From positions 1-45,431 of the forward strand of contig JANXXJ010000055.1 of assembly GCA_025350665.1 (NCBI GenBank): a stretch of DNA of 45,431 nucleotides, given 5' to 3'. This stretch comes from Gemmatimonadota bacterium (GTDB lineage: Bacteria; Gemmatimonadota; Gemmatimonadetes; Gemmatimonadales; GWC2-71-9). The translations under genes and the position numbers were made by a program. A model generated the notes under the pieces. It was given only the letters and a program-made list of their open reading frames with translations. It was not told the DNA's origin and ran no database searches. Numbering within the stretch: the stretch's first letter is position 1; each line of letters begins with the position of its first letter. This document shows, in pieces, positions 1 to 15,972 of the stretch.

Positions 1-975
1 ATGAGTCCTCTCATTGGTTCGCGCGTCAGTGATCGCCTGATCGGCCAGCGACAGCGCGACCACGGCGTCGGCCCCGGTACATGCAGGCGCACGGCCCGTC
101 GCCAGCGCCTCGACCAGGTCGCTCCCGGCGTGCATCAGAAGGTCACTGAGGCCTCCGGCGGGACCGGGAGCCGGGATCAGGTCCCGAAACCCGGGGAAAC
201 GCCGGCTGGGAGCCGCCGTGAACACCTCGACCCGTTGGCCCGAATCGATGACTCGGACCCGGCCCTTCCGGCCGATCAGGTCCATTTCGAAGAACGAATA
301 GGGAACGTCGCGAAGCCCGTGCAGCAGGCCGCGAGCGCCGGTGTCGAACTCCATGGCTACGTCGATCGTCGCGTCGAGAGCATCGTCAGCCACGTCGCCG
401 AATCCGCGCACCCCGACGATGTTCCCGACCAGGAACCGGGCCAGATCGAACCAGTGGGTGCCGTTGTGCTTGAGGCCCCGGACGTATGTCCCCCGGACCA
501 GTTCAAGGTCGCCGATGGGCTCGCCCTCGAGCCAGCGCCGCAACTGCTGGTGACTCGGCGCGAAGCGGCGGACGTAGTTCACCGCCAGCACGATCCCCCG
601 GCGATCCGCCTTGGCCACGAGGGCCTCGGCTTGCGCGACGTCGAGGGCCAGTGGCTTCTCCGCCAACACCGCCCGGACGGATGGCTGGTCGAGGATGAGA
701 TCGAGGACCTCGCCATGAGTCGCATCCGGCGAGCAGAGGCTCACGATGTCGGGTTTCAGCCGTTCGAGGAGCTCTGCCGCCGTGGCGAACGCCGATTGGA
801 CCGACCACCGCGTCGCGGCCGCCTGGAGCCGTTCGGGATCCGGATCGGCCAGGCCCACCAACTGGACGCCCGGGTGGTGCGTCCACGCCGCGGCGTGCGA
901 CTGGACCCCCGACCCCGGCAGCACCGGCGATGCGCCGATGAAGCCGCAGCCGATCACGGCTGCCCGGCGGGTCAT
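1..975 (-). CDS. Gfo/Idh/MocA-family oxidoreductase, C-terminus cut by window edge
   Basis: Reading leftward from an ATG at 975, 325 codons stay open to the window edge, so the C-terminus is missing. The N-terminus carries a dinucleotide-binding loop (GCGFIGA, residues 9-15), with a short insertion before the first helix. An EKPLA motif near residue 111 is the family's conserved Lys-Pro segment, and a second domain follows (VNYVRRF onward). Family members oxidise or reduce hydroxyls of sugars and nucleotide sugars with NAD(P). The ATG overlaps the stop of the upstream methyltransferase (ATGA, 972-975), so the gene is translationally coupled to the Pse operon. A role in tailoring Pse or a related sugar is inferred from position only. 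Confidence 0.85.
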   Translation of the reverse strand, partial: MTRRAAVIGCGFIGASPVLPGSGVQSHAAAWTHHPGVQLVGLADPDPERLQAAATRWSVQSAFATAAELLERLKPDIVSLCSPDATHGEVLDLILDQPSVRAVLAEKPLALDVAQAEALVAKADRRGIVLAVNYVRRFAPSHQQLRRWLEGEPIGDLELVRGTYVRGLKHNGTHWFDLARFLVGNIVGVRGFGDVADDALDATIDVAMEFDTGARGLLHGLRDVPYSFFEMDLIGRKGRVRVIDSGQRVEVFTAAPSRRFPGFRDLIPAPGPAGGLSDLLMHAGSDLVEALATGRAPACTGADAVVALSLADQAITDARTNERTH

Positions 976-1640
976 CCGACCCGGCCCTTTTCGAACAGGA
1001 CGACCTGGTCGGAAAGATCCGGGCCGCCGGTGGCCGCGCTGTAGGGGTAGTAGCGAACCTCGACGCGCTCGAGCCCCGGGCAGACCTCCTCGTAGCGCCG
1101 GGCGAAATCGGTCTTCCACAGCAGGCCCGTCTTCCCATGGTACGTGATCTCGGTCGTGACCGGCGCGAAGTACTCGTGGGCCAGGACGAACCGGCGGCTC
1201 ACCCGGCAAATCTCGGCCATCGCCCTGGGCAGGTCGTCGGGATGGATGTGGATCAAGACCCCGTGGGTCATCACCAGATCGAAGGCATGGTCCGGAAACG
1301 GCAGAGCGAACGCCGTGCCCTGATGAAAATGCATGTTGGGCGCCAGCTCCCGGGCTTTGGCCACCGCATACTCCTGGGGCTCCAGCCCGTGCAACTCGAG
1401 ACCGGGATTGACCCGTTCGAGCATCCGGAGCTGCAGGCCGATGTTGCAACCCACTTCGAGCGCCTTGCCGGCCGGGAGGCGCGCCGGGCCGACGACCTCG
1501 CGATAAATCGCGGACTTGGGCACGCCGAACTGCTCGGCGAAGGCCTGATCCATTTCGTCGAGGGACTGGCTGTTCCGGTCCGTGTAGGCCTGGCCGAAGG
1601 TCGAGGTCCAGGTATCGAGCTGTCTCGTCATCGTCGTCAT
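972..1640 (-). CDS. Pseudaminic acid biosynthesis-associated SAM methyltransferase
   Basis: This is a class I SAM-dependent methyltransferase of 222 aa. Motif I is LEVGCNIG (about residues 69-76), with an acidic loop (LEPQEYA) and a later DLVMTHGVLIHI segment. The N-terminal FGQAYTDRN segment matches the family of methylases found in pseudaminic acid clusters. Methylation of the finished sugar or glycan is inferred, and the acceptor is unknown. The open frame extends to 1763, but the start at 1640 (MTTMTRQ) has GAGGA just upstream and lies 7 nt after the cytidylyltransferase stop. A second ATG at 1631 is possible. Confidence 0.85.
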   Translation of the reverse strand: MTTMTRQLDTWTSTFGQAYTDRNSQSLDEMDQAFAEQFGVPKSAIYREVVGPARLPAGKALEVGCNIGLQLRMLERVNPGLELHGLEPQEYAVAKARELAPNMHFHQGTAFALPFPDHAFDLVMTHGVLIHIHPDDLPRAMAEICRVSRRFVLAHEYFAPVTTEITYHGKTGLLWKTDFARRYEEVCPGLERVEVRYYPYSAATGGPDLSDQVVLFEKGRVG

Positions 1641-1647
1641 GAAATCC

Positions 1648-2382
1648 TCAGCGCACGGCCTTCTGGCGGACGTGCTGGTTGAGTGTGGCAAGGTCGGGGC
1701 GGCGGTGCAGCAACTCGACGATGTCCTCGAGACCGAACCGGCGGTTGGCCGGATATAGTTCACCGTAGATCGCCGCGATCAGCTGGTAGTCCTCCGCGGT
1801 ATCCACTGTGAGCCGCCAGCCGGCATCGCGGGCATCGAGGCCGCTGGCGACGTTGAGCAGCCGGTAACGCTCCGGATGTTCGTAGATGTAGAGCGACACG
1901 TGCTCCCGGTCCGCCGGGTCCTGGGTCCGTTCCGCCACGTCCGCCAGAATCGCGACGGGAAAGACCTGGGCATCGAGCCCCCGGGGATAGGTGTGGCTGA
2001 GAATGTTCGAGCAGTAGTCCACCTGATTGGTCTGGAACGTGTGGATCAGCCCGTCGATCACGCTGGGATCGATCAGCGGACAGTCGGCGGTCGTTTCGAC
2101 GATCAGGTCCGCCCCGGCCCCGCGGGCGGCGTCGAGCACGCGGCTCAGCACATCGTCCTCGCTGCCCCGATGCCAGCCGACGCCGAGTTCCTTCGCCAGC
2201 GCCACGATCGGTTCATCGGCGGGATGATCGGTCGTCGCCACGACGATGCCATCCGCCCGCCGAACCCGACGAAGCCGCTCGATCATCCGGGCCAGCATCG
2301 GTTCGCCGAGCAGCGGCCGGAGCACCTTGCCCGGAAGCCGGGTCGAGCGCATCCTGGCTTCGATCGTGATGACGGTCTTCAC
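1648..2382 (-). CDS. pseF: CMP-pseudaminic acid cytidylyltransferase, SpsF/PseF type
   Basis: A 244-aa nucleotidyltransferase that begins with GTG. The signature EARMRSTRLPGKVL (residues 8-21) is the CTP-binding loop of the acylneuraminate/KDO cytidylyltransferase fold. ETTADCPLIDP contains the acidic metal-binding Asp. It should activate Pse with CTP to CMP-Pse, the donor for protein glycosylation. The sequence resembles SpsF more than Campylobacter PseF, so the function rests partly on its place directly after pseI. The GTG at 2382 overlaps the pseI stop (GTGA) and is preceded by GGAGG. The longer open frame to 3180 is a shadow of pseI. Confidence 0.85.
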   Translation of the reverse strand: MKTVITIEARMRSTRLPGKVLRPLLGEPMLARMIERLRRVRRADGIVVATTDHPADEPIVALAKELGVGWHRGSEDDVLSRVLDAARGAGADLIVETTADCPLIDPSVIDGLIHTFQTNQVDYCSNILSHTYPRGLDAQVFPVAILADVAERTQDPADREHVSLYIYEHPERYRLLNVASGLDARDAGWRLTVDTAEDYQLIAAIYGELYPANRRFGLEDIVELLHRRPDLATLNQHVRQKAVR

Positions 2383-3452
2383 GACACCTCCACGGCGGCT
2401 GATTCGGTTACGAGATCCCAGGTCACCGGCGTCCCACGGGCCGCCGCCCGGGCGGCCACGCGGCCGACCACGTTCGGGAGGTAGCGCGGCGCCAGCCCGA
2501 ATCCGGGCCGGATCGACCGGACATTGTCCGGCGTGAGTGGTTCTCCCGCCGCCACGTCGCGCACCACGTACAGCGACCGGCGAAAGGTGAAGCTGCCTTC
2601 TTCGGTGAGCCCGGGTCCGAATGCGGCCCGGCCTCGCATCGCGGTAGCCCGCTCCACGGCCTCGGCCATCGCCTTGAACTCGGCCGGCTCGAGCGAGAAA
2701 TGACTGTCCACGCCTCCAGCAGCCCGGTCCAGGGTGAAGTGCTTTTCGATCATGACGGCCCCAAGCGTCGCCGCCACCACCGGCGCTACCAGGCCAAGGC
2801 TGTGATCGGACAGGCCTGTCGGGCAACCGGTGGCGGCAGCCAGAAGCGGAATGGTCGCGAGGTTCATCGCCGCGTCCAGCGCGGGGTAGCTGCTGGTGCA
2901 CTTGAGGACGATGAGCTTGCGGCAGCCGTGGGTGCGAAGCACGTCCAGCGCGTGGGCCGTCTCCTCCAGGCTGGCCATACCGGTGGAGATGATGACGGGC
3001 TTTCCCGTAGCCGCGATCCGGGCCAGGAGCCCATCGTCCACGAGTTCGAACGACGCCACCTTGTGGGCCGGCGCGCCGAGCTCTTCGAGCAGATCGACGG
3101 CCGTGCCATCGAAGGGCGTGGAGAAGATCTCGAGGCCGAGGCGACGGGCTTCGGCGAACAGCGTCCGGTGCCAGGCCCACGGCGTATGGGCCTCACGGTA
3201 GAGGTCGTAGAGCGTCCGGCCCGCCCACGGGCCGCTCCCGGACACCACGAAGTCCGGCCGATCACAGTCGATGGTCAGCGTGTCCGGCGTGTAGGTCTGG
3301 AGCTTGATGGCGTGGGCACCCGCGGCGTGAGCCGCGCGCACCGTCGCGACGGCCCGCTCCAGGTCTCCATTGTGGTTGCCGGAAAGCTCCGCCACCAGAA
3401 AACACGGCTCGCCAGGACCGACCCGGTGCCGCCCAATCGCAATCGACGTCAT
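2379..3452 (-). CDS. pseI: Pseudaminic acid synthase
   Basis: A 357-aa NeuB-family TIM barrel followed by a C-terminal SAF (antifreeze-like) domain (about residues 290-350). Segments typical of PseI rather than sialic or legionaminic acid synthases include AELSGNHNG near the start, LQTYTPDTLT, STPFDGTAVD, LKCTSSYPA, GLSDHSLG and IEKHFTLD. The enzyme condenses 6-deoxy-AltdiNAc with phosphoenolpyruvate to form pseudaminic acid in the cytoplasm. The ATG at 3452 has GAGGA seven bases upstream. It follows pseG by 15 nt and overlaps the cytidylyltransferase start by 4 nt. All visible motifs look intact. Confidence 0.95.
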   Translation of the reverse strand: MTSIAIGRHRVGPGEPCFLVAELSGNHNGDLERAVATVRAAHAAGAHAIKLQTYTPDTLTIDCDRPDFVVSGSGPWAGRTLYDLYREAHTPWAWHRTLFAEARRLGLEIFSTPFDGTAVDLLEELGAPAHKVASFELVDDGLLARIAATGKPVIISTGMASLEETAHALDVLRTHGCRKLIVLKCTSSYPALDAAMNLATIPLLAAATGCPTGLSDHSLGLVAPVVAATLGAVMIEKHFTLDRAAGGVDSHFSLEPAEFKAMAEAVERATAMRGRAAFGPGLTEEGSFTFRRSLYVVRDVAAGEPLTPDNVRSIRPGFGLAPRYLPNVVGRVAARAAARGTPVTWDLVTESAAVEVS

Positions 3453-3467
3453 GCCAATCCTCGCATC

Positions 3468-4376
3468 TCAGCGTACCGGCCGGGCTGGGGCCATCGCCAT
3501 CAGTCCCTCCACCAGGCGCCCGGTACCGTTGGTCACCCGCGGCAACGCGCAGGCCACCGCAATCAACGAGCGCAGCTGGTAGGCCAGAAAGTCGGCGTCG
3601 AGCAAGGTCGTGTTGATGCCCGGCGCCCCGGCATCACGGGCCCAGCGATAGACCAGCCGCTGGTTGTCCGCGATCATCAGCAACCCGACCGGTACCCCGA
3701 CCGCCGCCGCCTCCCACACGGTGGTTCCGGCCGCGGTCAGCAGCTGTTTCGCCGCGACGACGTCGGCCCAAAGGCCGGCGGCCTCGATCCGCCGCCACCG
3801 GGCCGGCGCCCAGGTCCCGGTAGCGGCGAACGGCTGATCCGGAACCATGTCGGCCAGCTGCTCGAAAGCCTCGGTCACGATCCCTGGTGGCCGGCCTCCG
3901 CCGAGCGTAATGACGATCTCGGCCGACCCGCCGCGCCATTGCGGGAGATCGCTTCGAACGGCGAGGTACTCGGGGCCCGCGAACACGGTCCCGCCGAATC
4001 GGCGGTACATCGCGGGCTCACGGGTCCCGTTCGGGTTCCAGACGACGTCGAACCCCGGGGCGACGTCGACCCCGAAGTCGTCCACAAGGACCCGAATGCC
4101 CGCGCCGGTGCTCTGAGTCGCCCGAAACCGGGCGCCCGTTTCGTAGGAATCGACGACCAGCACGTCACATTCGGTCACATCGCCGTCTTCAGCCGCAAGG
4201 CCGAGCCGGGCGAAGCGCTCCACGACGAACGGGATTTCGAGGCGACCGCACACGGAGACTTCGCCGCCGGCCTCCAGCCACGTTTCCGCCAGGACTGCCA
4301 GCCGCATCGCGTGCCCGGCACCGACCGACGCGGTAGCGTCGGCCCTGAGCATGAGCAGGCGACCCGTGAGATTCAT
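3468..4376 (-). CDS. pseG: UDP-2,4-diacetamido-2,4,6-trideoxy-beta-L-altropyranose hydrolase
   Basis: A 302-aa GT-B-fold hydrolase that removes UDP from the diacetamido-altrose intermediate. The start motif LRADATASVGAGHAMR (residues 10-25) contains the GxGH signature, with His22 at the position of the catalytic His of PseG. The C-terminal half carries ITLGGG, TAAGTTVWEA and a nucleotide-binding ADNQ segment. The ATG at 4376 overlaps the pseC stop (ATGA). The frame is open further upstream to 4661, but that part is out of frame with pseC and has no homology. No acetyltransferase gene lies between pseC and pseG. Confidence 0.92.
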   Translation of the reverse strand: MNLTGRLLMLRADATASVGAGHAMRLAVLAETWLEAGGEVSVCGRLEIPFVVERFARLGLAAEDGDVTECDVLVVDSYETGARFRATQSTGAGIRVLVDDFGVDVAPGFDVVWNPNGTREPAMYRRFGGTVFAGPEYLAVRSDLPQWRGGSAEIVITLGGGRPPGIVTEAFEQLADMVPDQPFAATGTWAPARWRRIEAAGLWADVVAAKQLLTAAGTTVWEAAAVGVPVGLLMIADNQRLVYRWARDAGAPGINTTLLDADFLAYQLRSLIAVACALPRVTNGTGRLVEGLMAMAPARPVR

Positions 4377-5533
4377 CGAGTCGTGCCTTCGAGCGAGCGG
4401 GCAACGACCCCGACCACCCGTTCCACGTCGGATTCGGTCATCGCCGGGAACACGGGCACGGTGATCGCCGACGCATAGTAGGCCTCGGCCCCCGGCCGGT
4501 TGGTCCGGGCAAACCCGTGCTGCTGGTAGTAGGGTTGCCGATAGACCGGGATGTAATGGACGTTGGCGCCGATCCCTGCGGCGAGCAGACCGTCGTACAC
4601 CGTCCGCCGACGGGCCGGATCGACGCGGATCACATAGAGGTGGTGGGCCCCGCGCGACCAACGCGGCCGGATCAGGCGCGACACCCCCGGCATGGCCGCC
4701 ACGCGTGCGTCATACCACCCGGCAACCCGGGCCCTGGCCTCGAGCCAGCCGGGCAGCCGTTCGAGCTGCGACAGGCCGAGCGCGCATTGGAAGTCCGTCA
4801 GGCGATAGTTGTAGCCCAGCTCGAGCTGCTCGTAGTACCAGGGGCCATCGTTATGCGTCATCTCCGCGGCATCGCGGGTGATGCCATGGCTGCGGAACCG
4901 CTTGAGGCGGGCGTAGAGAGCCGGATCATTCGTGGTCACGGCACCGCCCTCCCCCGTCGTAAGCTGTTTGGCCGGGTGGAAACTGAAGCAGCACATGTCG
5001 CTGTGGGCGCAAGCACCGACCCGGTGGTCGCGGCCGTCGCTGGTGTGATAGGTCGCACCGATCGCGTGGGCCGCGTCTTCGACCACCCGCCATTGCCGCG
5101 CCTCGGCCACGGCGGCGATGGCCTCCATCGGGGCGACCTCGCCGCCGAAGTGGACCGGCGCCACCACCCGGACCGAAGCCTCGGCATGATCGTCCACGTC
5201 GTCGGCGTCCATCAGGCCGGTCTCGGGATCGATGTCCGTGAACCGGACCGATCCGCCCAGATAGAGCGCGGCATTGGCCGTGGCCACGAACGTATTCGGA
5301 CTGGTCAGGACCGACGCGCCGGGACCGACACCAGCCGCGGCGTAGGCCGCGTGCAGCGCCGCCGTGCAGCTGTTGAACGCCACCGCGAAGTCGGCGCCCG
5401 CAAACTCGGCCAGGGCCTTTTCGAATCGGTCCACGGTCGGTCCCTGGGTGATCAGGGCGGCCCGCAGCGCGGTGACGACGGCAGTGACGTCACCGTCGGA
5501 GATCTCCTGCCGGGCGTAGGGGAGGAATGCCAT
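4373..5533 (-). CDS. pseC: UDP-4-amino-4,6-dideoxy-N-acetyl-L-altrosamine transaminase
   Basis: A 386-aa DegT/DnrJ/EryC1 PLP aminotransferase. The FHPAKQLTTGEGG segment places the Schiff-base lysine at Lys189. VVEDAAHAIGA gives the PLP-nitrogen Asp at 153, and FNSCTAALHAA is the phosphate-binding region. It aminates the 4-keto product of PseB at C4 using an amino donor such as glutamate. The ATG at 5533 overlaps the pseB stop by ATGA, so the two sequential enzymes are translationally coupled. Length and motifs are normal for PseC. Confidence 0.93.
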   Translation of the reverse strand: MAFLPYARQEISDGDVTAVVTALRAALITQGPTVDRFEKALAEFAGADFAVAFNSCTAALHAAYAAAGVGPGASVLTSPNTFVATANAALYLGGSVRFTDIDPETGLMDADDVDDHAEASVRVVAPVHFGGEVAPMEAIAAVAEARQWRVVEDAAHAIGATYHTSDGRDHRVGACAHSDMCCFSFHPAKQLTTGEGGAVTTNDPALYARLKRFRSHGITRDAAEMTHNDGPWYYEQLELGYNYRLTDFQCALGLSQLERLPGWLEARARVAGWYDARVAAMPGVSRLIRPRWSRGAHHLYVIRVDPARRRTVYDGLLAAGIGANVHYIPVYRQPYYQQHGFARTNRPGAEAYYASAITVPVFPAMTESDVERVVGVVARSLEGTTR

Positions 5534-6513
5534 CAGTTGAGCCCCAGCGACCCCAGGAGATCCCGCACTTGCTTCACATCGAGGCGGTGAGGATTGTTGT
5601 CGCTCCGATAGGAAAAGCCATCCGGGACGGGTGCGCCGCCGGTCAGGGCCTGCTCATCCCACCAGGCCTGCTGGGGCTGGAGAACGTAGTGACTCCCCAT
5701 GTCGCGGGTCCGCCGGGCGTCGTCTTCGCCGATCATCAGTTCGTGGAGCTTCTCCCCCGGCCGGATCCCGATCACTTCGGTGCGGCAGGTCGGGGCCAGC
5801 GCCTCCACCAGCGTCATGATGTCGGTCGAGGGGATTTTCGGAACGAAGAGCTCGCCGCCATGCATCCGGCGGAGGCTGTCGAGGACGAAGTCCACACCCT
5901 GATCCAGCGTGATCCAGAACCGGGTCATCCGCGGATCGGTGATCGGCAGGACACCGTCGTGGCGCGCCTTGAGGAAGAAGGGCACGACCGATCCCCGGCT
6001 GCCAACGACGTTGCCGTACCGGACCACACTCATGATCGGGCCGCGGCCGCCGGAATAGGCATTGGCGGCGACGAACAACTTGTCGGAGCAGAGCTTGGTC
6101 GCACCGTAGAGATTGACCGGGTTGGCCGCCTTGTCGGTCGACAGGGCGATGACCTTCTCGACCCCGCTGTTGATTGCGGCTTCGATCACGTTCTGGGCGC
6201 CCAGCACGTTCGTCTTGATGCATTCGAACGGGTTGTACTCCGCGGCCGGCACCTGCTTCAGCGCCGCCGCGTGGACCACGATCTGCACCCCGGAGCAGGC
6301 CCGCTGGAGCCGTGGCAGGTCGCGCACGTCCCCAAGGAAGAAACGGACTCGGCGATCCTTGAACGCCTCGGCCATTTCGTACTGCTTGAGTTCGTCGCGG
6401 CTGTAGATGATCACGCGGCGCGGATCGTACCGGTCGAGTACGGTCTTGAGAAAGGCGCGGCCGAACGACCCCGTGCCGCCGGTCACCAGAATGGACTGTC
6501 CTTCGAGTAACAT
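5533..6513 (-). CDS. pseB: UDP-N-acetylglucosamine 4,6-dehydratase (inverting)
   Basis: A 326-aa extended SDR that starts Pse synthesis by dehydrating UDP-GlcNAc with C5 inversion. The NADP-binding TGGTGSFG is at residues 11-18. SRDELKQYEM follows beta-2, and the catalytic set of PseB/FlaA1 enzymes appears as STDKA (Asp127, Lys128) plus Tyr136 and Lys140 in YGATK. The ATG at 6513 has a near-ideal AAGGAG Shine-Dalgarno. It lies 15 nt after the last TPR-glycosyltransferase gene, so the sugar genes are downstream in the same transcript as the putative transferases. Confidence 0.95.
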   Translation of the reverse strand: MLLEGQSILVTGGTGSFGRAFLKTVLDRYDPRRVIIYSRDELKQYEMAEAFKDRRVRFFLGDVRDLPRLQRACSGVQIVVHAAALKQVPAAEYNPFECIKTNVLGAQNVIEAAINSGVEKVIALSTDKAANPVNLYGATKLCSDKLFVAANAYSGGRGPIMSVVRYGNVVGSRGSVVPFFLKARHDGVLPITDPRMTRFWITLDQGVDFVLDSLRRMHGGELFVPKIPSTDIMTLVEALAPTCRTEVIGIRPGEKLHELMIGEDDARRTRDMGSHYVLQPQQAWWDEQALTGGAPVPDGFSYRSDNNPHRLDVKQVRDLLGSLGLN

Positions 6514-6528
6514 CGTATCTCCTTGAAC

Positions 6529-8028
6529 TCAGGCCCGCGCGCGAGCGCCGGCGGTCATGGCCACCCGGACGGACAGGGCGCGCGCCACTTCGTTGAGGGT
6601 CCCGCTCCATGTGCGGTCGCCGTAAGGTTTCCTGAACAACCGGACCGCCGGGAACCACGGCGACCGCTCTTCGCCAAACACCGTCCAATCGTTCCCCGGG
6701 TCGACTTGCCAGGTCTCGGTCCCAACCGCCCCGGCCAATGAGGTCACGGCGGTCGGCGCCGCAATCACCAGATCGAGATGCCACGCCAATGCCGCCACGG
6801 ACTCGAGATCCTGTTTGAGGTCGACCGCGGGCCAGCGGTGCACCCGTCGGCCGGTCGCATGCTCCATGGTCTCGAGTTCCTCGCGACAGTCGTCGTACTG
6901 CAGGTTCACCAGCTCGACTCCCGGAACCTCGAAAATCGGGCGCCAGTCCTGGAGCGCGGCGTAGTAGCGCCGTCGGTCGGTGCCTCGCAGACCGCTCCGC
7001 CAGTTGATCCCGACCCGGAGGCCGGGTCCGAGAGGTTTGAGGCGGTCGCCCCACGCGACCAGCTGGGCGCGCGCCGGCACGAGTTGACTCCACTGCGGCC
7101 GGAAGTCAGTTCGACTCGGCCGGAGGTAGCGGGGCAGCCCGCCTAACGGGATCTGCCAGTCGAACGACCCGGAGCCCCAGGCGCCGTCGGGCACGACCAC
7201 GACGTCGGGCCAGGCCCGGCTGTAGAGGTCCACCAGCCGCGGATCGAGCGCCAGCGTGACCTCGGCGCCGAGGGCCACGAGATCCGGCACGCAGGTGGCG
7301 AACAGCATTTCGTCTCCCAGTCCCTGTTCGGGCCAAACCAGGATCCGGGTACCCTGCACCGGCTCGCCGCGCCACTCGTTCCACGGCAACCCGCGGTCAC
7401 GAGGCCGGCCCAGCCGGGCCCAGCGCGAGTCGTAGTGGCGCCATCCGTCATGGAGGCGGCCCGATGCGAGCTCGGTGAGGGCGCGGTTCCATTCCACCTC
7501 GGGCTGGGCCGGCTTGAGCGCGTCGGCCCGGTCGAATGCGGCGAGCGCCTCGGCGAACCGGCCCGCCTCCCGGCGGGCGTTCCCGAGATTGAGCCAGACA
7601 TCAGCGGCGTCGGGCATCCGGCTGGCGGCCGCTTCGAACGCCGAGACGGCCGCGGTGAGATTGCCCTGCTTCCGGAGGACGTTCCCCGCGTTGAAATGGG
7701 CCGTCGCATCGTGGGGTGCCAGACGGCTGGCCTCGTGGTAACACGCGGCCGCCGTATCGAGGTCACCGAGCTGTTCCCGACACACGCCCAGGTTAATCCA
7801 GGCATCGGGGGCGTCGGGCCGGAGGCGAACCGCCGCATCGAACGCGACCGCGGCCGCCGCGACCTCGCCGCGCTGGCGGAGCAACTGCCCGAGGTTGAAG
7901 TGGGCCGGGGCCAGAGTCGGCGCGGCCGCGACGGCCGTGCGGTAGGCCGCGATGGCGCGTTCCGCCTCGCCGGCCCGCTGCGCGGCCAGGCCCCGTTCAA
8001 ATTCCGCCAACCCAAGCGTCGCCGTCAT
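6529..8028 (-). CDS. TPR/glycosyltransferase fusion, FlmG-like (paralogue 4 of 4 in transcription order)
   Basis: A 499-aa cytoplasmic-looking protein. Residues 1-190 are about five tetratricopeptide repeats (AHFNLGQLLRQRGE, AWINLGVCREQLGD, VWLNLGNARREAGR). Residues 200-490 are a GT-B-like domain shared by all four neighbours, with RILVWPEQGLGDEMLF, VGINWRSGL, LVNLQYDDC, DLESV and APTAVTSLAGAVG. This TPR plus C-terminal transferase layout resembles Caulobacter FlmG, which attaches Pse to flagellins. That role here is inferred from layout and from the pse genes next door. The ATG at 8028 overlaps the previous stop (ATGA). The frame is open to 8934 by shadow only. Confidence 0.85.
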   Translation of the reverse strand: MTATLGLAEFERGLAAQRAGEAERAIAAYRTAVAAAPTLAPAHFNLGQLLRQRGEVAAAAVAFDAAVRLRPDAPDAWINLGVCREQLGDLDTAAACYHEASRLAPHDATAHFNAGNVLRKQGNLTAAVSAFEAAASRMPDAADVWLNLGNARREAGRFAEALAAFDRADALKPAQPEVEWNRALTELASGRLHDGWRHYDSRWARLGRPRDRGLPWNEWRGEPVQGTRILVWPEQGLGDEMLFATCVPDLVALGAEVTLALDPRLVDLYSRAWPDVVVVPDGAWGSGSFDWQIPLGGLPRYLRPSRTDFRPQWSQLVPARAQLVAWGDRLKPLGPGLRVGINWRSGLRGTDRRRYYAALQDWRPIFEVPGVELVNLQYDDCREELETMEHATGRRVHRWPAVDLKQDLESVAALAWHLDLVIAAPTAVTSLAGAVGTETWQVDPGNDWTVFGEERSPWFPAVRLFRKPYGDRTWSGTLNEVARALSVRVAMTAGARARA

Positions 8029-9944
8029 GCGGACTCTCCTGCGGCCCAGTGACTGAGCGTCGCGGCCAACCGGTCGATCGCGCCCGCCCACCCGGACTGG
8101 CCCACGCCCTTTCTGATCATCCGGACACTCGGCGCCCAGGGACTGCGATCTTCGCCCAGCGCGGTCCAGTCGCTGCCGCTGTCGAGTTGCCAGGTTCGGG
8201 CGCCGACGGCGCCCGCAATGGAACTGACGGCCGTTGGGGCGGTCACGACCGCATCGAGGGCCGTGATCAGGCCGGCCACACTCTCCAGATCGTGTTTCAG
8301 GTCTTCGCCGGCCCACCGGTGGACCCGGACCTGGGCCGCGGTTTCGATCACCGACAAGTCGGTGTCGGCCTGGTCGTACTGGAGGTTGACCCAGACGATG
8401 CCGGGGACCCGCCAGACCGGCGCCCAGGCCTCCAGCGGCGCGTAATGACGCTGCCGTTCGGGCGTGAGCAGACCACTGCGCCAGCAGACGCCGACCCGGC
8501 GCCCGGGGCCGAGGCCCTCGAGGCGGTCCCGCCACCGTGCCACCTGGGCCGGATCGGGTTCGAGGTAGTCGCCCTTGGCCGGGAAGGCCGCCCGGGTCCG
8601 GCGGAGCCAGCGCGGCAGACTGCCTAACGGGACATGGCAGTCGAACTCGACGCCGGTTCCGGATCCGGTCTCGTCGGGCAGCACATCGGTTCCCGGAAAT
8701 GTCCGGCGGCAGAGGCTCACCAACCGCGGGGTGACCAGCAGGGTCACCACGGCACCGGCTGCGATCAGCTCGGGAACGCAGGAGAGGAACATCAGCTCGT
8801 CGCCCAGGCCCTGCTCCCGCCAAACCAGAATCCGCTTGCCGTTGAGCGGCTCGCCCTGCCAGAGCGGGCGGAGATACCGGCGACAATCGGCCGGCCGGCT
8901 CGACGCCCGCCACCGCCATTCGTACTCGTCCCACCCCCGACCCAGCTCGCCCGCTCCCAGCAGGGCCAACGCCAGGTTCCAGTGGGCGTCCCCGAAGTCC
9001 GGATCGCAGCTGACCGCGCGCTCATGCTCGACCATGGCCTGGGAGAAGTCCCCCTGCTCCGCCGCAATGCTCCCGAGGGCCGTGTGGGGTTTTGGGCCCG
9101 GCTCGATGGTCTGGGCCCGGGCGAAGCTGGCCCGCGCATCCTCCAGCTGCCCGAGCGCCTGCAGCGTCGTTCCCCGGTTGAGCCAGGACGCCGCCTGATG
9201 CGGCGCTACCATCACGGCCCGGTCGTGCACCACCAGCGCCGCGGCCACCTGACCCTGCCGGGTCAGCGCAACGCCGAGGTTGGTCAGCACGTCGGGGTCA
9301 TCGGGCACGAGGGTGAGGGCTCGCCGGTAGTGGGTTGCCGCCTCGTCGAAACGTCCCAGCTGCTGCGTCGTCACGCCAAGATTCTTGTGGGCGGGCGCCA
9401 GATCGGGGGCCAGCGCGATCGACCGGGCAAACCGATCAGCGGCCTCTTCGAGCCGGCCGATCTGTTGCAGGGCACTCCCCAGGTTCATCTGCGCCAGCGC
9501 GGAATGCGGGGCCCGGGCCACGGCAATGTCCAGGGCCGCCACCGCCCCGGCCGCGTCGCCGCGATCGAGCCGGACCAGCCCGAGGTTGATCCAGCCATCG
9601 GCGAACGACGGATCGAGCGCTGTCGCCTGGCGGAGTTCCCGCTCGGCGTGGTCGTAGTCACCGAGCAACCGGAGAGTGTGGCCGTAGTTCGAGCGATACT
9701 CCGCCACCCGCGGACGGAGCGTGACGAGGCGGGCAAAGTGATTGCCGGCGTCGCCGAGCGCGCCGCGGCCCAATGCCAGCAAGCCGAGGAGATGATGGGC
9801 GTCGGGATTCGCGGGATCCGCGCTCAGGACCCGGTGGTAACAGCCATGGGCCTCGGTGAACCGGCCGGCCCGATGGTGATTCAGCCCGCTGGTCAGATCG
9901 GCGCGCGCCGGTCCCGGTCGCTTCTGGGATGTGGTCGTCGTCAC
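8025..9944 (-). CDS. TPR/glycosyltransferase fusion, FlmG-like (paralogue 3 of 4)
   Basis: A 639-aa protein with about nine TPRs (residues 20-330), longer than in the two shorter paralogues. The shared transferase-like domain follows (about 345-635): RILVWREQGLGDELMF, VGVCWRSGL, WVNLQYDQ, DLESVAGL and APTAVSSIAGAVG. I chose GTG at 9944 because it overlaps the preceding stop (GTGA) and has GGAG eight bases upstream. The open frame to 10064 would overrun the neighbour. The TPR part probably selects the protein acceptor, and different arrays could mean different flagellins or partners. This last point is inference. Confidence 0.85.
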   Translation of the reverse strand: MTTTTSQKRPGPARADLTSGLNHHRAGRFTEAHGCYHRVLSADPANPDAHHLLGLLALGRGALGDAGNHFARLVTLRPRVAEYRSNYGHTLRLLGDYDHAERELRQATALDPSFADGWINLGLVRLDRGDAAGAVAALDIAVARAPHSALAQMNLGSALQQIGRLEEAADRFARSIALAPDLAPAHKNLGVTTQQLGRFDEAATHYRRALTLVPDDPDVLTNLGVALTRQGQVAAALVVHDRAVMVAPHQAASWLNRGTTLQALGQLEDARASFARAQTIEPGPKPHTALGSIAAEQGDFSQAMVEHERAVSCDPDFGDAHWNLALALLGAGELGRGWDEYEWRWRASSRPADCRRYLRPLWQGEPLNGKRILVWREQGLGDELMFLSCVPELIAAGAVVTLLVTPRLVSLCRRTFPGTDVLPDETGSGTGVEFDCHVPLGSLPRWLRRTRAAFPAKGDYLEPDPAQVARWRDRLEGLGPGRRVGVCWRSGLLTPERQRHYAPLEAWAPVWRVPGIVWVNLQYDQADTDLSVIETAAQVRVHRWAGEDLKHDLESVAGLITALDAVVTAPTAVSSIAGAVGARTWQLDSGSDWTALGEDRSPWAPSVRMIRKGVGQSGWAGAIDRLAATLSHWAAGESA

Positions 9945-11341
9945 CGGGCGTACTCCGGAACCCGCACACTGTCGAGTTCGGCGGCCACCCGTTCGAGCGC
10001 CTGGCGCCAATCCCCGGACCCGCTGGCCCGGCGCACCATCCGGATGTTCGGGAACCAGGGACACCGTTCTTCACCGTGAGCGGTCCAGTCCGAACCGTTG
10101 TCGACTTCCCACGTCGGGGCCCCGGCTGCGCCGGCGAGCGAGCTCACCGCGGTAGGCGCCGTGACGACGGCATCGAGATTCCAGATCAAGCCGACCACGC
10201 TTTCGAGGTCGTTCTTGAGATTTTCCTTGGGCCAGCGGTGGATGGTTACCCCAAACTGTTCCTTGACCCGGGCGACCTCGGCCGCACAGTCGTCATATTG
10301 GAGATTCACCCAGTGAACCCCCTCGAGACGGAGCAGCGGCTCCCACTCATCAATCGCCGAGTAGGCGTGGCGTCGATCTTCCGTGAGCAGCCCGCTCCGC
10401 CAGCAAATCCCGACCTTGAGTCCCGCGCCCAACTGATCAAGCCGGCCCGCCCACTTGGTGGCCTGAGCCGAGTCGGGATGGAAGAATCGTGATTCGAGCG
10501 GGAACTGATCCCGGTTTCGACGGAGGTAGCGGGGCAGACCGCCGATCGGGCAATGGAAGTCGAACTCCTTGCCTTTCCATTTGCCGTCGTCGATCACCGT
10601 CACGCCCGGGAAGGCACGGGCAAAGAGCCCATTCAGCCTTGGCGTCACGGCGAGCGTCACCGACGCTCCGGCCGCGACCAGCTCACGGACGCAGCCGGCA
10701 AACAGGATCTCGTCGCCGAGCCCCTGCTCCCGCCAGACCAGGATCCGCTTCTCCACCACCCGCTCGCCTTGCCACGTCGGGCAGGAAAAGCCGGCCGCAG
10801 GATCGAGGCCCAGCTTGGCCCAGCGCCATTCGTACTGGGTCCATCCGCCGTCAAAATCGCCGGAGGAAAGCAGGGCCGCGGCCAGATTCCACTGGGCGTC
10901 GATGTGGTCGGGGCGCTGCTCGATTACCGTCCGGTATGCGGCCGCGGCTCCGGGGTAATCCCCCAGCGCCATGAGGGCGTTGCCGAGGTTGTACTGCGGA
11001 GCCGGCTCCTCCGGCGCGCAGGCGACCGCCCGCTGATAGGCCGCGACGGCGTCACGATGCCGTTCCGTGCGTTCGAACATCGCGCCCAGGTTGAGCCAGG
11101 CATCGCTCGCGTTAGGCCTCAGGCGAGCGGCGCCCTCGAAGCAAATGGCAGCGTCGGCGTATTCGCCTCGCTCCCGCAGCAGTTGTCCCAGATTGAAGTG
11201 GGCCGGGGCCAGGCCGGGATTCTGCCGAATCGCCCGGCGGTAGCAGAGAACGGCCTCGTCCTTCCGGCCGGCTTGCTGGGCCGCGAGGCCACGCTGCAAG
11301 GCAGCCAGGCCGGGGATGTCCCGGTGATCGGGCAGACTCAC
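9941..11341 (-). CDS. TPR/glycosyltransferase fusion, FlmG-like (paralogue 2 of 4)
   Basis: A 466-aa protein, the shortest of the set. About five TPRs cover residues 10-175 (AHFNLGQLLRERGE, AWLNLGAMFERTER, PQYNLGNALMALGD). The transferase-like domain covers 180-460, with KRILVWREQGLGDEILF, VGICWRSGL, WVNLQYDDC, DLESVVGL and APTAVSSLAGA. The GTG at 11341 overlaps the upstream stop (GTGA) and has GGGAGG about nine bases before it. An ATG at 11365 is an alternative but would overlap the neighbour more. The protein is closest in layout and TPR wording to the 499-aa paralogue, suggesting a recent duplication. Confidence 0.85.
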   Translation of the reverse strand: MSLPDHRDIPGLAALQRGLAAQQAGRKDEAVLCYRRAIRQNPGLAPAHFNLGQLLRERGEYADAAICFEGAARLRPNASDAWLNLGAMFERTERHRDAVAAYQRAVACAPEEPAPQYNLGNALMALGDYPGAAAAYRTVIEQRPDHIDAQWNLAAALLSSGDFDGGWTQYEWRWAKLGLDPAAGFSCPTWQGERVVEKRILVWREQGLGDEILFAGCVRELVAAGASVTLAVTPRLNGLFARAFPGVTVIDDGKWKGKEFDFHCPIGGLPRYLRRNRDQFPLESRFFHPDSAQATKWAGRLDQLGAGLKVGICWRSGLLTEDRRHAYSAIDEWEPLLRLEGVHWVNLQYDDCAAEVARVKEQFGVTIHRWPKENLKNDLESVVGLIWNLDAVVTAPTAVSSLAGAAGAPTWEVDNGSDWTAHGEERCPWFPNIRMVRRASGSGDWRQALERVAAELDSVRVPEYAR

Positions 11342-13689
11342 AGCGGCTTCCCTCCCGCCGCCCACTCCGCCAACTCCTGGCTGACCCGGTCGAGAAGCGG
11401 CTCCCAGCCCTGCTCGAAGTCGTCTTTCCGCACCATCCGAATGGAGGTCATCCAGGGGCAGCGATCCTCGCTGAACGCCGTCCAGTCGCTGCCGCTGTCG
11501 ACCTGGAGCGTGGGGGTTCCCACCGCGCCCGCGAGCGAGCTTACCGCGGTTGGTGCGGTGACCACTGCGTCGAGTACCCCGAGCAGTCCGACCACGCTCT
11601 CCAGATCATTGCGGAGGTCCTCGCCTTCCCACTGGTGAATCGCGATGCCGTGCCGGCGCGCGTCGGCCAGTTCCTGATCACACTGGTCGTACTGCAGATT
11701 GACCCAGACGATTCCCGGGGTCCGCAGGACGCGGAGCCATGAGGTCCACGGGGCGTAGTGCCGGGACCGGGTCGCCGACAACAGGCCGCTCCGCCAGCAG
11801 ATCCCAACCTTCCGGCCGGCCCCCAGCTGCGAGAGGCGAACCTCCCACTTGGCGCGGGCGCTCGCGAGCGGCTTGAGAAACGCGCCATTGCCCTGAAACC
11901 GGTCCCTGGTGCGCCGGAGCCAGCGCGGCAGGCTCCCGATCGGGGCATGGAAGTCGTAGCGGAGGCCATCCAGTGCACCGGGCTCGCTGCCGATCACCTC
12001 AGCGGTCGGGAAGGCCCGGCGAACCATCTCGACGAGGCGGAGACTGACGACCAGCATCACCTGGGCCCCGGCCGCAATCAGATCGGGCACGGTCGTCAGG
12101 AACAGGAGTTCGTCGCCCAGGCCCTGCTCGCGCCACACCATGATCCGCTTCCCGCGAACATCTTCGCCCTGCCAGAGCGGCCCGCCGGGCAGGATCGGGA
12201 CCTTGAAGCGGTTTCCGTCGCGCCATCGCCATTCGTATTCGTCGAAGCCGCGGGCCAGGTCGCCGCCGCCGATCAACGCGAGGGCCCGATTCCATCGGGC
12301 GTCGCCGTAGTCGGGATCGATCGCCAGGGCCTGGTCGTACGCGGCGACTGCAGCCGGATAGCGGCCGTTGTCGCGCCAGAGGTTCCCCAGATTGAACGCC
12401 GCCTCGGCCAGCGTCGGTTTGAGCACCAGCGCGTCACCATAGCTTCGGGCCGCGTCTTCGAGCCGGCCCAGCGTCTTTTGGATGTTGCCGAGCGTCAGTC
12501 TCGCTTCGGCCATCGAAGCGTCGAGGGCGATCGCCCGGCGCGCCGCGATCAGCGCCGCCACTTCGTCGCCGACGGCGTGAAGGGTGTTAGCGAGATTGGT
12601 CTCGAGCCGGGCCGAATTCGGTGTCAGGGCCACGGCCGCCCGCAAATCGCGGATCGATTCATCGAGCCGGTCGAGGTGCCGAAGCGTCCCCGCCCGACCG
12701 CTCAGCAGATCCGCGTCGGGCCCGACCCGTTCGAGACCGAGGTTGAACGCGGCCAGGGCTTCGGTGAGCCGGTTCTGGGCCTGGTAGATCGCGCCAAGGT
12801 GCACGTACGGTTCCTTGGCGTCCGAGCGAACCACTCGGGCCGCTTCGAACACCGCGACGGCCTCGTCGAGACGACCCCTTCCCTGAAGCGCCATCCCGAG
12901 ATTGACCAGCGATTGGTAGTGCGAGGGGGCTACCGCGAGGGCCTGTCGATACACCGCGATGCCCGCCTCGATCTCGCCACCGGCCATATAGGCCGTCCCG
13001 AGATTGGCATAGGCCTCGACCAGGTCCGGCTTGAGCCCGATGGCGGTCCGGTAGGACTCGATCGCCGATTCGCGCCGGTCGGTGGCCTGGAGCAGCGAGC
13101 CCAGGTCCGAATGCGCTTCCGCGAAGCCGGGCCGCAACTCCACCGCCTGACGAAGCGCCCGTTCGGCCTCGGCCAGCCGGCCTAACGAATGGAGGGCCGC
13201 GCCGCGGGTGGCGTGCGCTTCGGCAAACGCGGGGTCGAGGGCGAGGGCCCGGTCGTAGGCGGACACGGCACCGGAAAGGTCGCCCAGCAGGCGCCGGACG
13301 GTCCCGAGATGGAGATGGGCCGTCGGCGAGGCCGGACGAAGCAGCACCGCCCGCTCGAACGCCGCCCGGGCCGATTCGATGTCGCCCAGCGCCTGGCGGG
13401 CAAGTCCGAGGTTGATCGCAAAATCAGGGGCCCGAGGGTCGATCGCCGTCGCCTGTTCCAGCAGCGTCACCGCCAGCGTGTGATCACCCATCTGATGGGC
13501 CAGAACGCCGGTCAAATTCAGGGCATCAGGCTGCTCCGGATCCAGCGCCAGGACGGCACGATAGGATTTGAGCGCCGACGCCCAGTCCCCCGCCTGATGA
13601 TGGGCAAGGCCGCGGCGCAGGACCTGTCTGACATCGACGGCGAGTCCGCCGACCACGGCCTCCTGGTTTTCGAGCAGGTTGATTCCCAT
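11338..13689 (-). CDS. TPR/glycosyltransferase fusion, FlmG-like, long TPR array (paralogue 1 of 4)
   Basis: A 783-aa protein and the first gene of the pse operon. About thirteen TPRs fill residues 20-490, for example ALNLTGVLAHQMGD, AHLHLGTVRRLLGD and AAFNLGNLWRDNGR. The C-terminal transferase-like domain (500-780) has KRIMVWREQGLGDELLF, VGICWRSGLL, WVNLQYDQC, DLESVVGLLG and APTAVSSLAGAVG. The ATG at 13689 has GGAGAG about ten bases upstream. Later genes are coupled to it by 4-nt overlaps. An ATG at 13815 in the same frame is not needed. I see no clear promoter on the minus strand upstream. Confidence 0.85.
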   Translation of the reverse strand: MGINLLENQEAVVGGLAVDVRQVLRRGLAHHQAGDWASALKSYRAVLALDPEQPDALNLTGVLAHQMGDHTLAVTLLEQATAIDPRAPDFAINLGLARQALGDIESARAAFERAVLLRPASPTAHLHLGTVRRLLGDLSGAVSAYDRALALDPAFAEAHATRGAALHSLGRLAEAERALRQAVELRPGFAEAHSDLGSLLQATDRRESAIESYRTAIGLKPDLVEAYANLGTAYMAGGEIEAGIAVYRQALAVAPSHYQSLVNLGMALQGRGRLDEAVAVFEAARVVRSDAKEPYVHLGAIYQAQNRLTEALAAFNLGLERVGPDADLLSGRAGTLRHLDRLDESIRDLRAAVALTPNSARLETNLANTLHAVGDEVAALIAARRAIALDASMAEARLTLGNIQKTLGRLEDAARSYGDALVLKPTLAEAAFNLGNLWRDNGRYPAAVAAYDQALAIDPDYGDARWNRALALIGGGDLARGFDEYEWRWRDGNRFKVPILPGGPLWQGEDVRGKRIMVWREQGLGDELLFLTTVPDLIAAGAQVMLVVSLRLVEMVRRAFPTAEVIGSEPGALDGLRYDFHAPIGSLPRWLRRTRDRFQGNGAFLKPLASARAKWEVRLSQLGAGRKVGICWRSGLLSATRSRHYAPWTSWLRVLRTPGIVWVNLQYDQCDQELADARRHGIAIHQWEGEDLRNDLESVVGLLGVLDAVVTAPTAVSSLAGAVGTPTLQVDSGSDWTAFSEDRCPWMTSIRMVRKDDFEQGWEPLLDRVSQELAEWAAGGKPL

Positions 13690-14449: not shown

Positions 14450-14462
14450 CGGGTTGGACGCG

Positions 14463-14828
14463 ATGAAGTGTCTTGTGGTGGATGACTCGGCCACGATGCG
14501 ACGCATCGTCGTCAACGCCCTGAAGAGTATTGGCATGACCGACGTGGTCGAGGCCGGCGATGGCAGCCAGGCCCTCCAGGCCTGTGACCCGTCGGTCGAG
14601 TTGGTCATCACCGACTGGAACATGCCGGTCATGGACGGGCTCGGCCTGGTCAAGGCCCTTCGCGCCAACGCCGCCACCGCCAAGACGCCCGTCCTCATGG
14701 TCACGACCCGGAGCGTTCAGGAAGACATCATACAGGCCGTGGAAGCCGGCGTCACCGGCTACATCCTCAAGCCGTTCACCCCCCAGATCCTCAAGGACAA
14801 GATCAGCCAGATCACGGCGGTCGCATGA
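14463..14828 (+). CDS. cheY: Chemotaxis response regulator CheY
   Basis: A 121-aa single receiver domain. The acidic pocket is Asp7-Asp8, the phosphoacceptor is Asp51 in TDWNMPVMDG, the switch Thr is 81-82 in MVTTRS, and the conserved Lys103 is in LKPF. There is no output domain, as expected for the protein that binds the flagellar switch. I chose ATG 14463 (MKCLVVDDSATMRR) over an in-frame TTG at 14454, because CheY proteins start this way. The Shine-Dalgarno is weak for both. The stop overlaps cheZ by 4 nt (ATGA), so the kinase target and its phosphatase are made together. Confidence 0.93.
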   Translation: MKCLVVDDSATMRRIVVNALKSIGMTDVVEAGDGSQALQACDPSVELVITDWNMPVMDGLGLVKALRANAATAKTPVLMVTTRSVQEDIIQAVEAGVTGYILKPFTPQILKDKISQITAVA

Positions 14829-15544
14829 GCGTCAGCGGCGACGGCCCCGCCGGAAGTGATTTGCGCACCCTCGCCATCGAGTTCCAGGGCACCATGGATC
14901 CCGTCGATCAGCTGGTCAGCGAAGTCAACATCGGCGCTGAAGCGCACACGCTCCGCGGCCGCCTGGTCGAGCTGGCGCGGGTCCTGGGCAGGCGCCCTGA
15001 CCTGACTGCGCTCCCCGGCATCGTACTCCGGGCCTATTCCGAAGTGACCGACGCCCTCGGCGGGATCCAGCAGGGGCGCGAAGCGATTCGCCACGTGACG
15101 TTCGAGCGGCTCCAGAAGGGCCACGCCAAACTGTCTCAGGTCGCCCATGTGACCGAATCGGCCACGCTGGAGTTGATGAACGGGATCGACCGCTCCCTCG
15201 GCTTGATCGACCAGCTGGCGGCCGTGGTGCCGGACCATCCGACGGCGGCCACCGCTATCGACTCGCTCCGCGACGAGCTCAACGAGTTCTTCGGCCATCT
15301 CCAGTTCCAGGACATCACCGCGCAGCAGCTGGCCGGCGTGGGCGGCCTGCTCGAGGACATCGAAACCCGGGTCCAATCCGTCGTTACCCGGTTCGACGGC
15401 CGCGCCGTCACGGCGGCTGTCGGCGACGGGAAAGGGCAACTGACCGGTGCCTACAACGCGGACGCCACCTTCGACCGCATTTCGGCCCGGCAAGCCGCGA
15501 TCGATGCGGCGTTCACCAGGACCGGCGCCCAGGCGTCCAGATGA
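14825..15544 (+). CDS. cheZ: CheY-P phosphatase CheZ
   Basis: A 239-aa largely helical protein. The FQDITAQQ segment at residues 161-168 reproduces the CheZ active site, with Asp163 and Gln167 spaced like Asp143 and Gln147 of E. coli CheZ. Long helices on either side (about 65-150 and 150-190) fit the four-helix bundle dimer. The C-terminal tail (ATFDRISARQAAIDAAF) could be the CheY-binding helix. The ATG overlaps cheY by 4 nt. CheZ dephosphorylates CheY-P to end the motor signal. Confidence 0.88.
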   Translation: MSVSGDGPAGSDLRTLAIEFQGTMDPVDQLVSEVNIGAEAHTLRGRLVELARVLGRRPDLTALPGIVLRAYSEVTDALGGIQQGREAIRHVTFERLQKGHAKLSQVAHVTESATLELMNGIDRSLGLIDQLAAVVPDHPTAATAIDSLRDELNEFFGHLQFQDITAQQLAGVGGLLEDIETRVQSVVTRFDGRAVTAAVGDGKGQLTGAYNADATFDRISARQAAIDAAFTRTGAQASR

Positions 15545-15972
15545 CCGCGCCGCGAAACGTTGAGAACGCTCGCCCGGATGGGACCCGGTGGTCCATCCTC
15601 TTTGTCGACGACGACGATATGGTCTGCCGGAGCATGGGCAAGTGCCTCGACCGGGTCGGATTCCGGACCGTCACGGTGACGTCCGCCGTCGAGGCGCTCG
15701 CCCGGATCGGGACCGAGCGGTTTGATGTGATCATCACCGATCACAACATGCCGGAAATGTCGGGTGGGGAGCTGATCGAGCGTCTGATCGAACACGACCC
15801 GACGCTCCGAGGACGGATCATCCTGACCAGCGGGGACCTTCACTCGGACGCCAACGACGCTCTCATGACCCGGACCGGGGCCCGAGGGCTCCAGAAGCCT
15901 TTTCAGGTCGCCGAGCTGGCCCTGGCGGTACGGGCCGCTGTAGCCAGACTCGGCGCGTTGAATCCCGCCTAG
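15541..15972 (+). CDS. Single-domain response regulator receiver protein
   Basis: A 143-aa receiver domain with a 17-residue N-terminal extension. The acidic pocket is at 23-26 (DDDD), the phosphoacceptor is Asp67 in TDHNMPEMSGG, Thr96 is in LTSGD, and Lys119 is in LQKPF. No output domain follows. It overlaps the cheZ stop by 4 nt (ATGA) and ends the flgM-cheY-cheZ operon. The partner kinase is not in the window. It may be a second CheY-like phosphate sink or a general signalling receiver. Its stop codon shares two bases with the stop of the convergent M55 gene. Confidence 0.88.
   Translation: MTAPRNVENARPDGTRWSILFVDDDDMVCRSMGKCLDRVGFRTVTVTSAVEALARIGTERFDVIITDHNMPEMSGGELIERLIEHDPTLRGRIILTSGDLHSDANDALMTRTGARGLQKPFQVAELALAVRAAVARLGALNPA

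Follow-up and report, generated by a model that had tools for sequence, protein, structure and literature searches.

Contig JANXXJ010000055.1 of a Gemmatimonadota bacterium (assembly GCA_025350665.1; 45,431 nt, hereafter the window) carries four overlapping genes, GT1 to GT4, each joining an N-terminal array of tetratricopeptide repeats (TPRs) to a predicted C-terminal GT-B glycosyltransferase (GT) domain, inside an operon for the biosynthesis of pseudaminic acid (Pse), a sialic-acid-like sugar. Together with a fifth paralogue beside the sole flagellin gene of the genome, they form a set with nearly uniform catalytic domains and with TPR grooves that are conserved between orthologues and divergent between paralogues. 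Architecture and gene context recall FlmG of Caulobacter crescentus, and the copies could act jointly on the one flagellin with labour divided by site, a reading to which we give roughly an even chance. What is a one-enzyme job in Caulobacter thus seems divided here among several specialised copies.

Four TPR-glycosyltransferase genes leading into a pse operon

The four genes, all complete, occupy positions 6529-13689 and are transcribed on the minus strand in the order GT4, GT3, GT2, GT1.

11338..13689, minus strand: GT4, TPR array (13 repeats) and predicted GT9-like GT-B catalytic domain, 783 aa
9941..11341, minus strand: GT3, TPR array (4 repeats and a linker hairpin) and predicted GT-B domain, 466 aa, GTG start
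8025..9944, minus strand: GT2, TPR array (9 repeats) and predicted GT-B domain, 639 aa
6529..8028, minus strand: GT1, TPR array (5 repeats) and predicted GT-B domain, 499 aa

Each junction (GT4/GT3, GT3/GT2 and GT2/GT1) is a 4-nt overlap, and a 15-nt spacer separates the end of GT1 from the start of pseB (6513). The GTG start of GT3 is the one that overlaps the GT4 stop by 4 nt; a longer GT3 frame would begin at 11365. The C-terminal domains of GT1-GT4 (280-284 aa) are pairwise 45-58% identical, which is far above chance (BLASTP E 1e-79 to 1e-116). Pfam TPR profiles matched the proteins, and the repeats counted above come from a register scan, with 11 strict and 2 degenerate repeats in GT4. 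In the GT3 model, an extra hairpin precedes the catalytic domain (5 hairpins in total), giving roughly 5-14 hairpins across the four proteins. Open reading frames and BLASTP thereby confirmed what a sequence-only reading had described: four tandem paralogues with a shared C-terminal domain, unequal TPR arrays and 4-nt overlaps, leading into pseB. Divergent from GT4 lie cheY-like, cheZ-like and second receiver genes (window positions 14454-15972), and some or all of these genes come after GT4 in three further genomes as well (G031, G055 and G159).

We next considered the fold of the catalytic domain. AlphaFold2 modelled full-length GT3 as TPR hairpins leading into an alpha/beta domain (pLDDT 95.6) and the GT2 catalytic domain with a pLDDT of 96.3. 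Foldseek matched the latter to the GT9 heptosyltransferases 1psw (template modelling (TM) score 0.68, E 3e-7), 3tov and WaaC and to the protein heptosyltransferase TibC, with TM-scores of about 0.5-0.68 at 10-15% identity. The C-terminal domain is predicted on these models to be GT-B, closest to GT9 heptosyltransferases. In sequence it differs from them: the Pfam GT9 model (PF01075, Glyco_transf_9) matched 12 of 93 family members weakly (best E 1.4e-5) and did not match the window domain tested, and a PDB sequence search with the catalytic domain returned nothing significant. The best full-length Foldseek matches were SPINDLY and the GT41 O-GlcNAc transferase OGT, which likewise join a TPR superhelix to GT-B, at low TM-scores. 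The catalytic domain by itself, however, matches GT9 rather than GT41, with no GT41 enzyme among the listed best Foldseek matches of its model and no GT41 Pfam match. An E-Q-G-x-G-D motif and a W-x-S motif are among the features invariant across 111 family members, and none of the five copies looks degenerate, since all retain the invariant residues.

The Pse genes follow GT1 on the same strand, as listed here with their profile matches.

5533..6513, minus strand: pseB (flmA-like), UDP-GlcNAc 4,6-dehydratase (TIGR03589, 510 bits, over cut-off)
4373..5533, minus strand: pseC (flmB-like), aminotransferase (TIGR03588, 459 bits, over cut-off)
3468..4376, minus strand: pseG-like nucleotide-sugar hydrolase (TIGR03590, 53 bits, a weak match below cut-off; operon position)
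2379..3452, minus strand: pseI (neuB-like), pseudaminic acid synthase (TIGR03586, 449 bits, over cut-off)
1648..2382, minus strand: cytidylyltransferase, CTP_transf_3 (PF02348, E 9e-27), not PseF-type
972..1640, minus strand: Pse biosynthesis-associated methylase (TIGR03587, 150 bits, over cut-off)
1..975, minus strand: Gfo/Idh/MocA oxidoreductase, cut by the contig end (57% identity to L117:17219-18208)

The genetic link of the transferases to the Pse pathway is therefore carried by pseB, pseC and pseI, which exceed curated cut-offs, lie in the same operon and are kept with it across the genus; the PseI-type synthase is the only one over cut-off in the genome. The CTP_transf_3 protein is likely the enzyme that activates Pse as its cytidine monophosphate (CMP) derivative.

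This arrangement resembles that of C. crescentus FlmG (CCNA_01524; Ardissone et al. 2020), whose TPR domain binds flagellins and whose activity needs Pse (PMC7591256). Both combine an N-terminal TPR region with a C-terminal GT-B domain, are linked to a Pse pathway with a non-PseF-like cytidylyltransferase, and occur with a flagellum of the FlaF/FlbT type and without Maf, a likeness drawn from architecture and gene context. Maf (PF01973) had no match in the host genome (G000; 4.59 Mb, 94% complete), nor in the GT proteins. The enzyme class is thus already known, and the FlmG-like architecture proposed for the window genes is supported by the Pfam TPR matches, the GT3 model, the GT9 structural matches and the pse profiles. 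A C-terminal domain lacking a GT-B fold would have spoken against it; the models were confident and matched GT9.

Paralogue-specific TPR grooves, one flagellin and fused modules

TPR arrays and catalytic domains have diverged differently. Orthologous arrays are 62% identical (range, 51-85) and paralogous arrays 36% (28-47), as against 66% and 55%, respectively, for the catalytic domains. Array length is kept between orthologues almost gap-free, and the TPR tree resolves five clean orthologue clades. The catalytic-domain tree mixes GT2 and GT4, and separate clades survive approximately unbiased (AU) tests (p 0.32, 0.22); for this reason we do not claim gene conversion between the two.

Positions 2, 5, 9, 12 and 13 of the 34-residue TPR register line the concave groove in TPR proteins generally and were taken as groove positions here. 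Between orthologues, these positions were 77% identical versus 52% at other non-structural positions (bootstrap difference 0.18-0.32), in a sample of few genomes, two of them (G083 and G159) close to each other, and with some genes truncated; the excess had the same direction in every paralogue and held with G031 alone. Between paralogues, groove positions were 13-30% identical and not above the remaining positions, while in the first three repeats the groove is shared at 60% by GT1 and GT3 and at 33% by GT2 and GT4. Per 100 columns in the same sample, the catalytic domain had 2.2 fixed paralogue differences and the TPR part 12.3. Only 3 of 278 catalytic columns were constant within every paralogue group yet different between groups, and GT2 and GT4 had zero fixed differences there. 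At two catalytic columns that are constant in the other copies, GT5 has a residue of its own (P to G, G to A). Because the grooves are conserved between orthologues and divergent between paralogues, with few fixed catalytic differences, each array seems to be matched to a conserved ligand of its own, with catalysis in common. Recent redundant duplication was rejected, the paralogues being old and 1:1 orthologous.

The fifth paralogue, GT5, lies on contig C302 (locus L008), about 130 nt upstream of the sole flagellin gene, fliC, with its 5' end cut by the contig end. The copy number of four given by the sequence-only reading is therefore right for the window and one short for the genome. The other Flagellin_N match of the genome is FlgL, and the flagellin itself is short (271 aa). 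GT genes, pse genes and fliC form a conserved island whose members correspond 1:1 among four genomes of one Gemmatimonadota genus (the host, G031, G083 and G159), in which each GT1-GT5 has its namesake as its full-length best match and the flagellin is 84-86% identical. Five TPR-GT copies were found in G031, five in G083 and four in G159 (84% complete, set split over contigs), with one flagellin each; a GT4 orthologue is present in all three. On a single contig, G031 carries fliI to flbD, flgL, flaF, flbT, a gene without assigned function, fliC, GT5 and a second sugar set, followed by the methylase, cytidylyltransferase, pseI, pseG, pseC, pseB, GT1, GT2, GT3, GT4 and a cheY-like gene, and gene order in G083 and G159 is consistent with this on split contigs. 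Since the island recurs in four genomes, a contaminated contig or chimaeric bin is unlikely.

Two further features of the island were observed. The protein encoded between flbT and fliC (L008:12576-13220) is conserved in the genus (35-49%), had no Pfam or NCBIfam match and is a possible flagellin-associated factor. The second sugar set (L117:12551-18208 and L122:9066-13771), between GT5 and the pse genes, comprises a second cytidylyltransferase (about 42% identity with the first), a GNAT protein, a methyltransferase, a DegT aminotransferase and a 375-aa protein that matched no Pfam or NCBIfam profile significantly, together with a Gfo/Idh oxidoreductase in G031. The oxidoreductase at positions 1..975 of the window opens this set, which in G031 leads to GT5 and fliC, and whose product may be an additional or a modified nonulosonic acid.

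Loss of the island was also seen. Genome G055 lacks fliC, a PseI over cut-off and any GT domain, and retains a scar (L131:13594-14642) in which a relic of the N-terminal TPR region of GT4 (64% identity over 125 residues) comes immediately after flaF and flbT. Beyond the relic lie cheY-like genes and an M55 peptidase gene, the genes that flank GT4 in the window, such that everything from fliC through the catalytic domain of GT4 is gone while some basal-body genes are kept. This single deletion says nothing on the role of each gene. Genome G067 has no flagellin, no PseI over cut-off and no GT.

Outside the genus, the closest catalytic domains are in Azospirillaceae (the best ones, 42-51% identity); among related loci, Gemmatimonadetes metagenome-assembled genomes ranked best and Azospirillum and its kin next. 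The Azospirillaceae proteins (Azospirillum, Niveispirillum, Nitrospirillum) are alike in the catalytic domain and often encoded next to fliC or pseB-pseC, but differ in that two to five modules are fused per frame, with up to 33 domains per genome. Across the loci, 79 of 130 GT-bearing open frames had at least two GT domains. Nitrospirillum frames hold five TPR-GT units (2829-2888 aa) and Niveispirillum frames four (about 2200-2250 aa), both beside pseB-pseC, and Azospirillum frames three (about 2000 aa) beside fliC, with more units on the opposite strand. A PseI over cut-off was found in 22 of the 25 genomes examined. Loci with fused frames of this kind are as follows.

L078, L079, L084, L085, L086; L063, L075, L077; Azospirillum loci such as L018-L023: three to five TPR-GT modules fused per frame, up to 2888 aa, neighbouring pseB-pseC or fliC

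Candidate roles of the copies

We propose that GT1-GT5 are FlmG-type cytoplasmic O-glycosyltransferases. By analogy with FlmG, the N-terminal TPR superhelix would most likely dock the acceptor, and the GT9-like domain would transfer a nonulosonic acid, probably Pse or a methylated form, from a CMP donor made by enzymes of the same operon. All five would modify the one flagellin prior to FlaF-assisted export, each groove presenting a flagellin segment of its own and so exposing other Ser/Thr sites to modification. Division by site on the flagellin is our first choice because there is one flagellin, several grooves and common catalysis. Unlike Caulobacter, with one FlmG for six flagellins, the genus has five enzymes with paralogue-specific grooves for one, and the earlier idea of one transferase per flagellin fails, both in the four GT-bearing genomes (one flagellin, four or five transferases) and in most Azospirillaceae genomes examined (12-33 GT domains, 1-7 flagellin-family proteins). 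The broader idea of acceptor-side specialisation in the sequence-only reading draws indirect support from the comparison of grooves with catalytic domains.

The fused frames suggest joint action on a shared acceptor. In the Gemmatimonadota genus, the modules are separate genes, four of them translationally coupled, and in Azospirillaceae related modules are joined in one polypeptide. We put forward more tentatively, as possible rather than probable, a modular set that repeats one catalytic module behind differing TPR address domains, the number and identity of modules setting the sugar sites on a single flagellin; split coupled genes and multi-module proteins would be two forms of it.

Several observations weigh against division by site on the flagellin. 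Among the five genes only GT5 adjoins fliC, and contact of GT1-GT4 with flagellin is presumed. Caulobacter manages six flagellins with one FlmG (PMC7591256), so modifying several sites does not require several enzymes. The stretch from GT5 to the pse genes in G031 encodes a second cytidylyltransferase, aminotransferase and methyltransferase, and more than one donor is therefore possible. Finally, the family may not be tied to Pse, because the polar flagellin of Azospirillum brasilense bears a Rha/Fuc/Gal/GlcNAc repeat (PMC3958885).

Ranked second, and rather unlikely, is a division by protein, in which GT5 would act on flagellin and GT1-GT4 on other proteins, such as further axial components (hook, FlgK, FlgL, FliD), chemoreceptors or envelope proteins, each by its own groove. 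The divergent, orthologue-conserved grooves would fit this, as would the position of GT5 as the only fliC neighbour and that of GT4 divergent from cheY/cheZ-like genes. An Azospirillum oryzae relative (WP_149198670.1; 1285 aa, one coding sequence annotated 'tetratricopeptide repeat protein' in NZ_CP054617.1) has as its neighbour a chemotaxis operon that includes a chemoreceptor. In contrast, fusion of three to five modules in single frames next to fliC or pseB points to a shared acceptor, and in G055 the GTs, fliC and pse genes were lost as one block, a single deletion and hence weak evidence. The suggestion of the sequence-only reading that one copy serves non-flagellar proteins is retained within this alternative, although the Azospirillaceae fusions speak for joint action.

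Less likely still, and third, the copies would differ in donor or build a chain, transferring Pse, methylated Pse or a second nonulosonic acid, or adding one sugar each. The second sugar set, with its cytidylyltransferase, DegT aminotransferase, GNAT protein, methyltransferase and oxidoreductase, and the two substitutions in GT5 are consistent with this, but the genome has a single PseI-type synthase over cut-off, and fixed catalytic differences are few while divergence is strong in the grooves. Maf transferases provide precedents by analogy for both kinds of division: they perform cytoplasmic O-transfer of nonulosonic acids to flagellin, albeit with a PF01973 domain. Maf paralogues that differ in the sites they modify (as cited in PMC13317340) would parallel division by site, and Campylobacter Maf4, a putative legionaminyl transferase (PMC9298399), would parallel division by donor. 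Redundant copies kept for dosage or by drift are very improbable: tandem arrays of this family do expand readily, as the Azospirillaceae domain counts illustrate, but here distinct species share the same members in the same order at 51-70% identity, and every member keeps an array length and a conserved groove of its own.

The acceptor binding of the FlmG TPR domain gives an entry to the question of how acceptors are chosen by cytoplasmic O-glycosyltransferases. The present set, conserved across species and with fused counterparts elsewhere, offers five address domains joined to nearly interchangeable catalytic domains opposite a single flagellin, and is suited to domain swaps asking whether the TPR groove dictates site. 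In the open-access literature searched, we found no paper on multi-copy or fused TPR-GT sets, and neither a conserved multi-member set facing one flagellin nor an occurrence in Gemmatimonadota.

Origin of the set and of its flagellum

The catalytic-domain tree unites the 18 Gemmatimonadota domains in a single clade (support 99-100) placed among sequences from Alphaproteobacteria, and the Azospirillaceae expansion of GT domains is separate from that in Gemmatimonadota. This single clade implies that the copies arose within the lineage once the gene had entered it, or else that they were homogenised there. Locus L008 (1-15934, contig C302) carries flagellar genes of the alphaproteobacterial type (flaF, flbT and flbD). 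Of 298 Gemmatimonadota genomes sampled, 4 matched FlbT, every one from this genus, and the TPR-GT family was found in 107 of 289 alphaproteobacterial genomes sampled. Flagellar and glycosylation genes look to have been acquired horizontally from Alphaproteobacteria, a direction suggested by the tree and by the distribution of FlbT, which would place an alphaproteobacterial-type flagellum together with its glycosylation island in another phylum.

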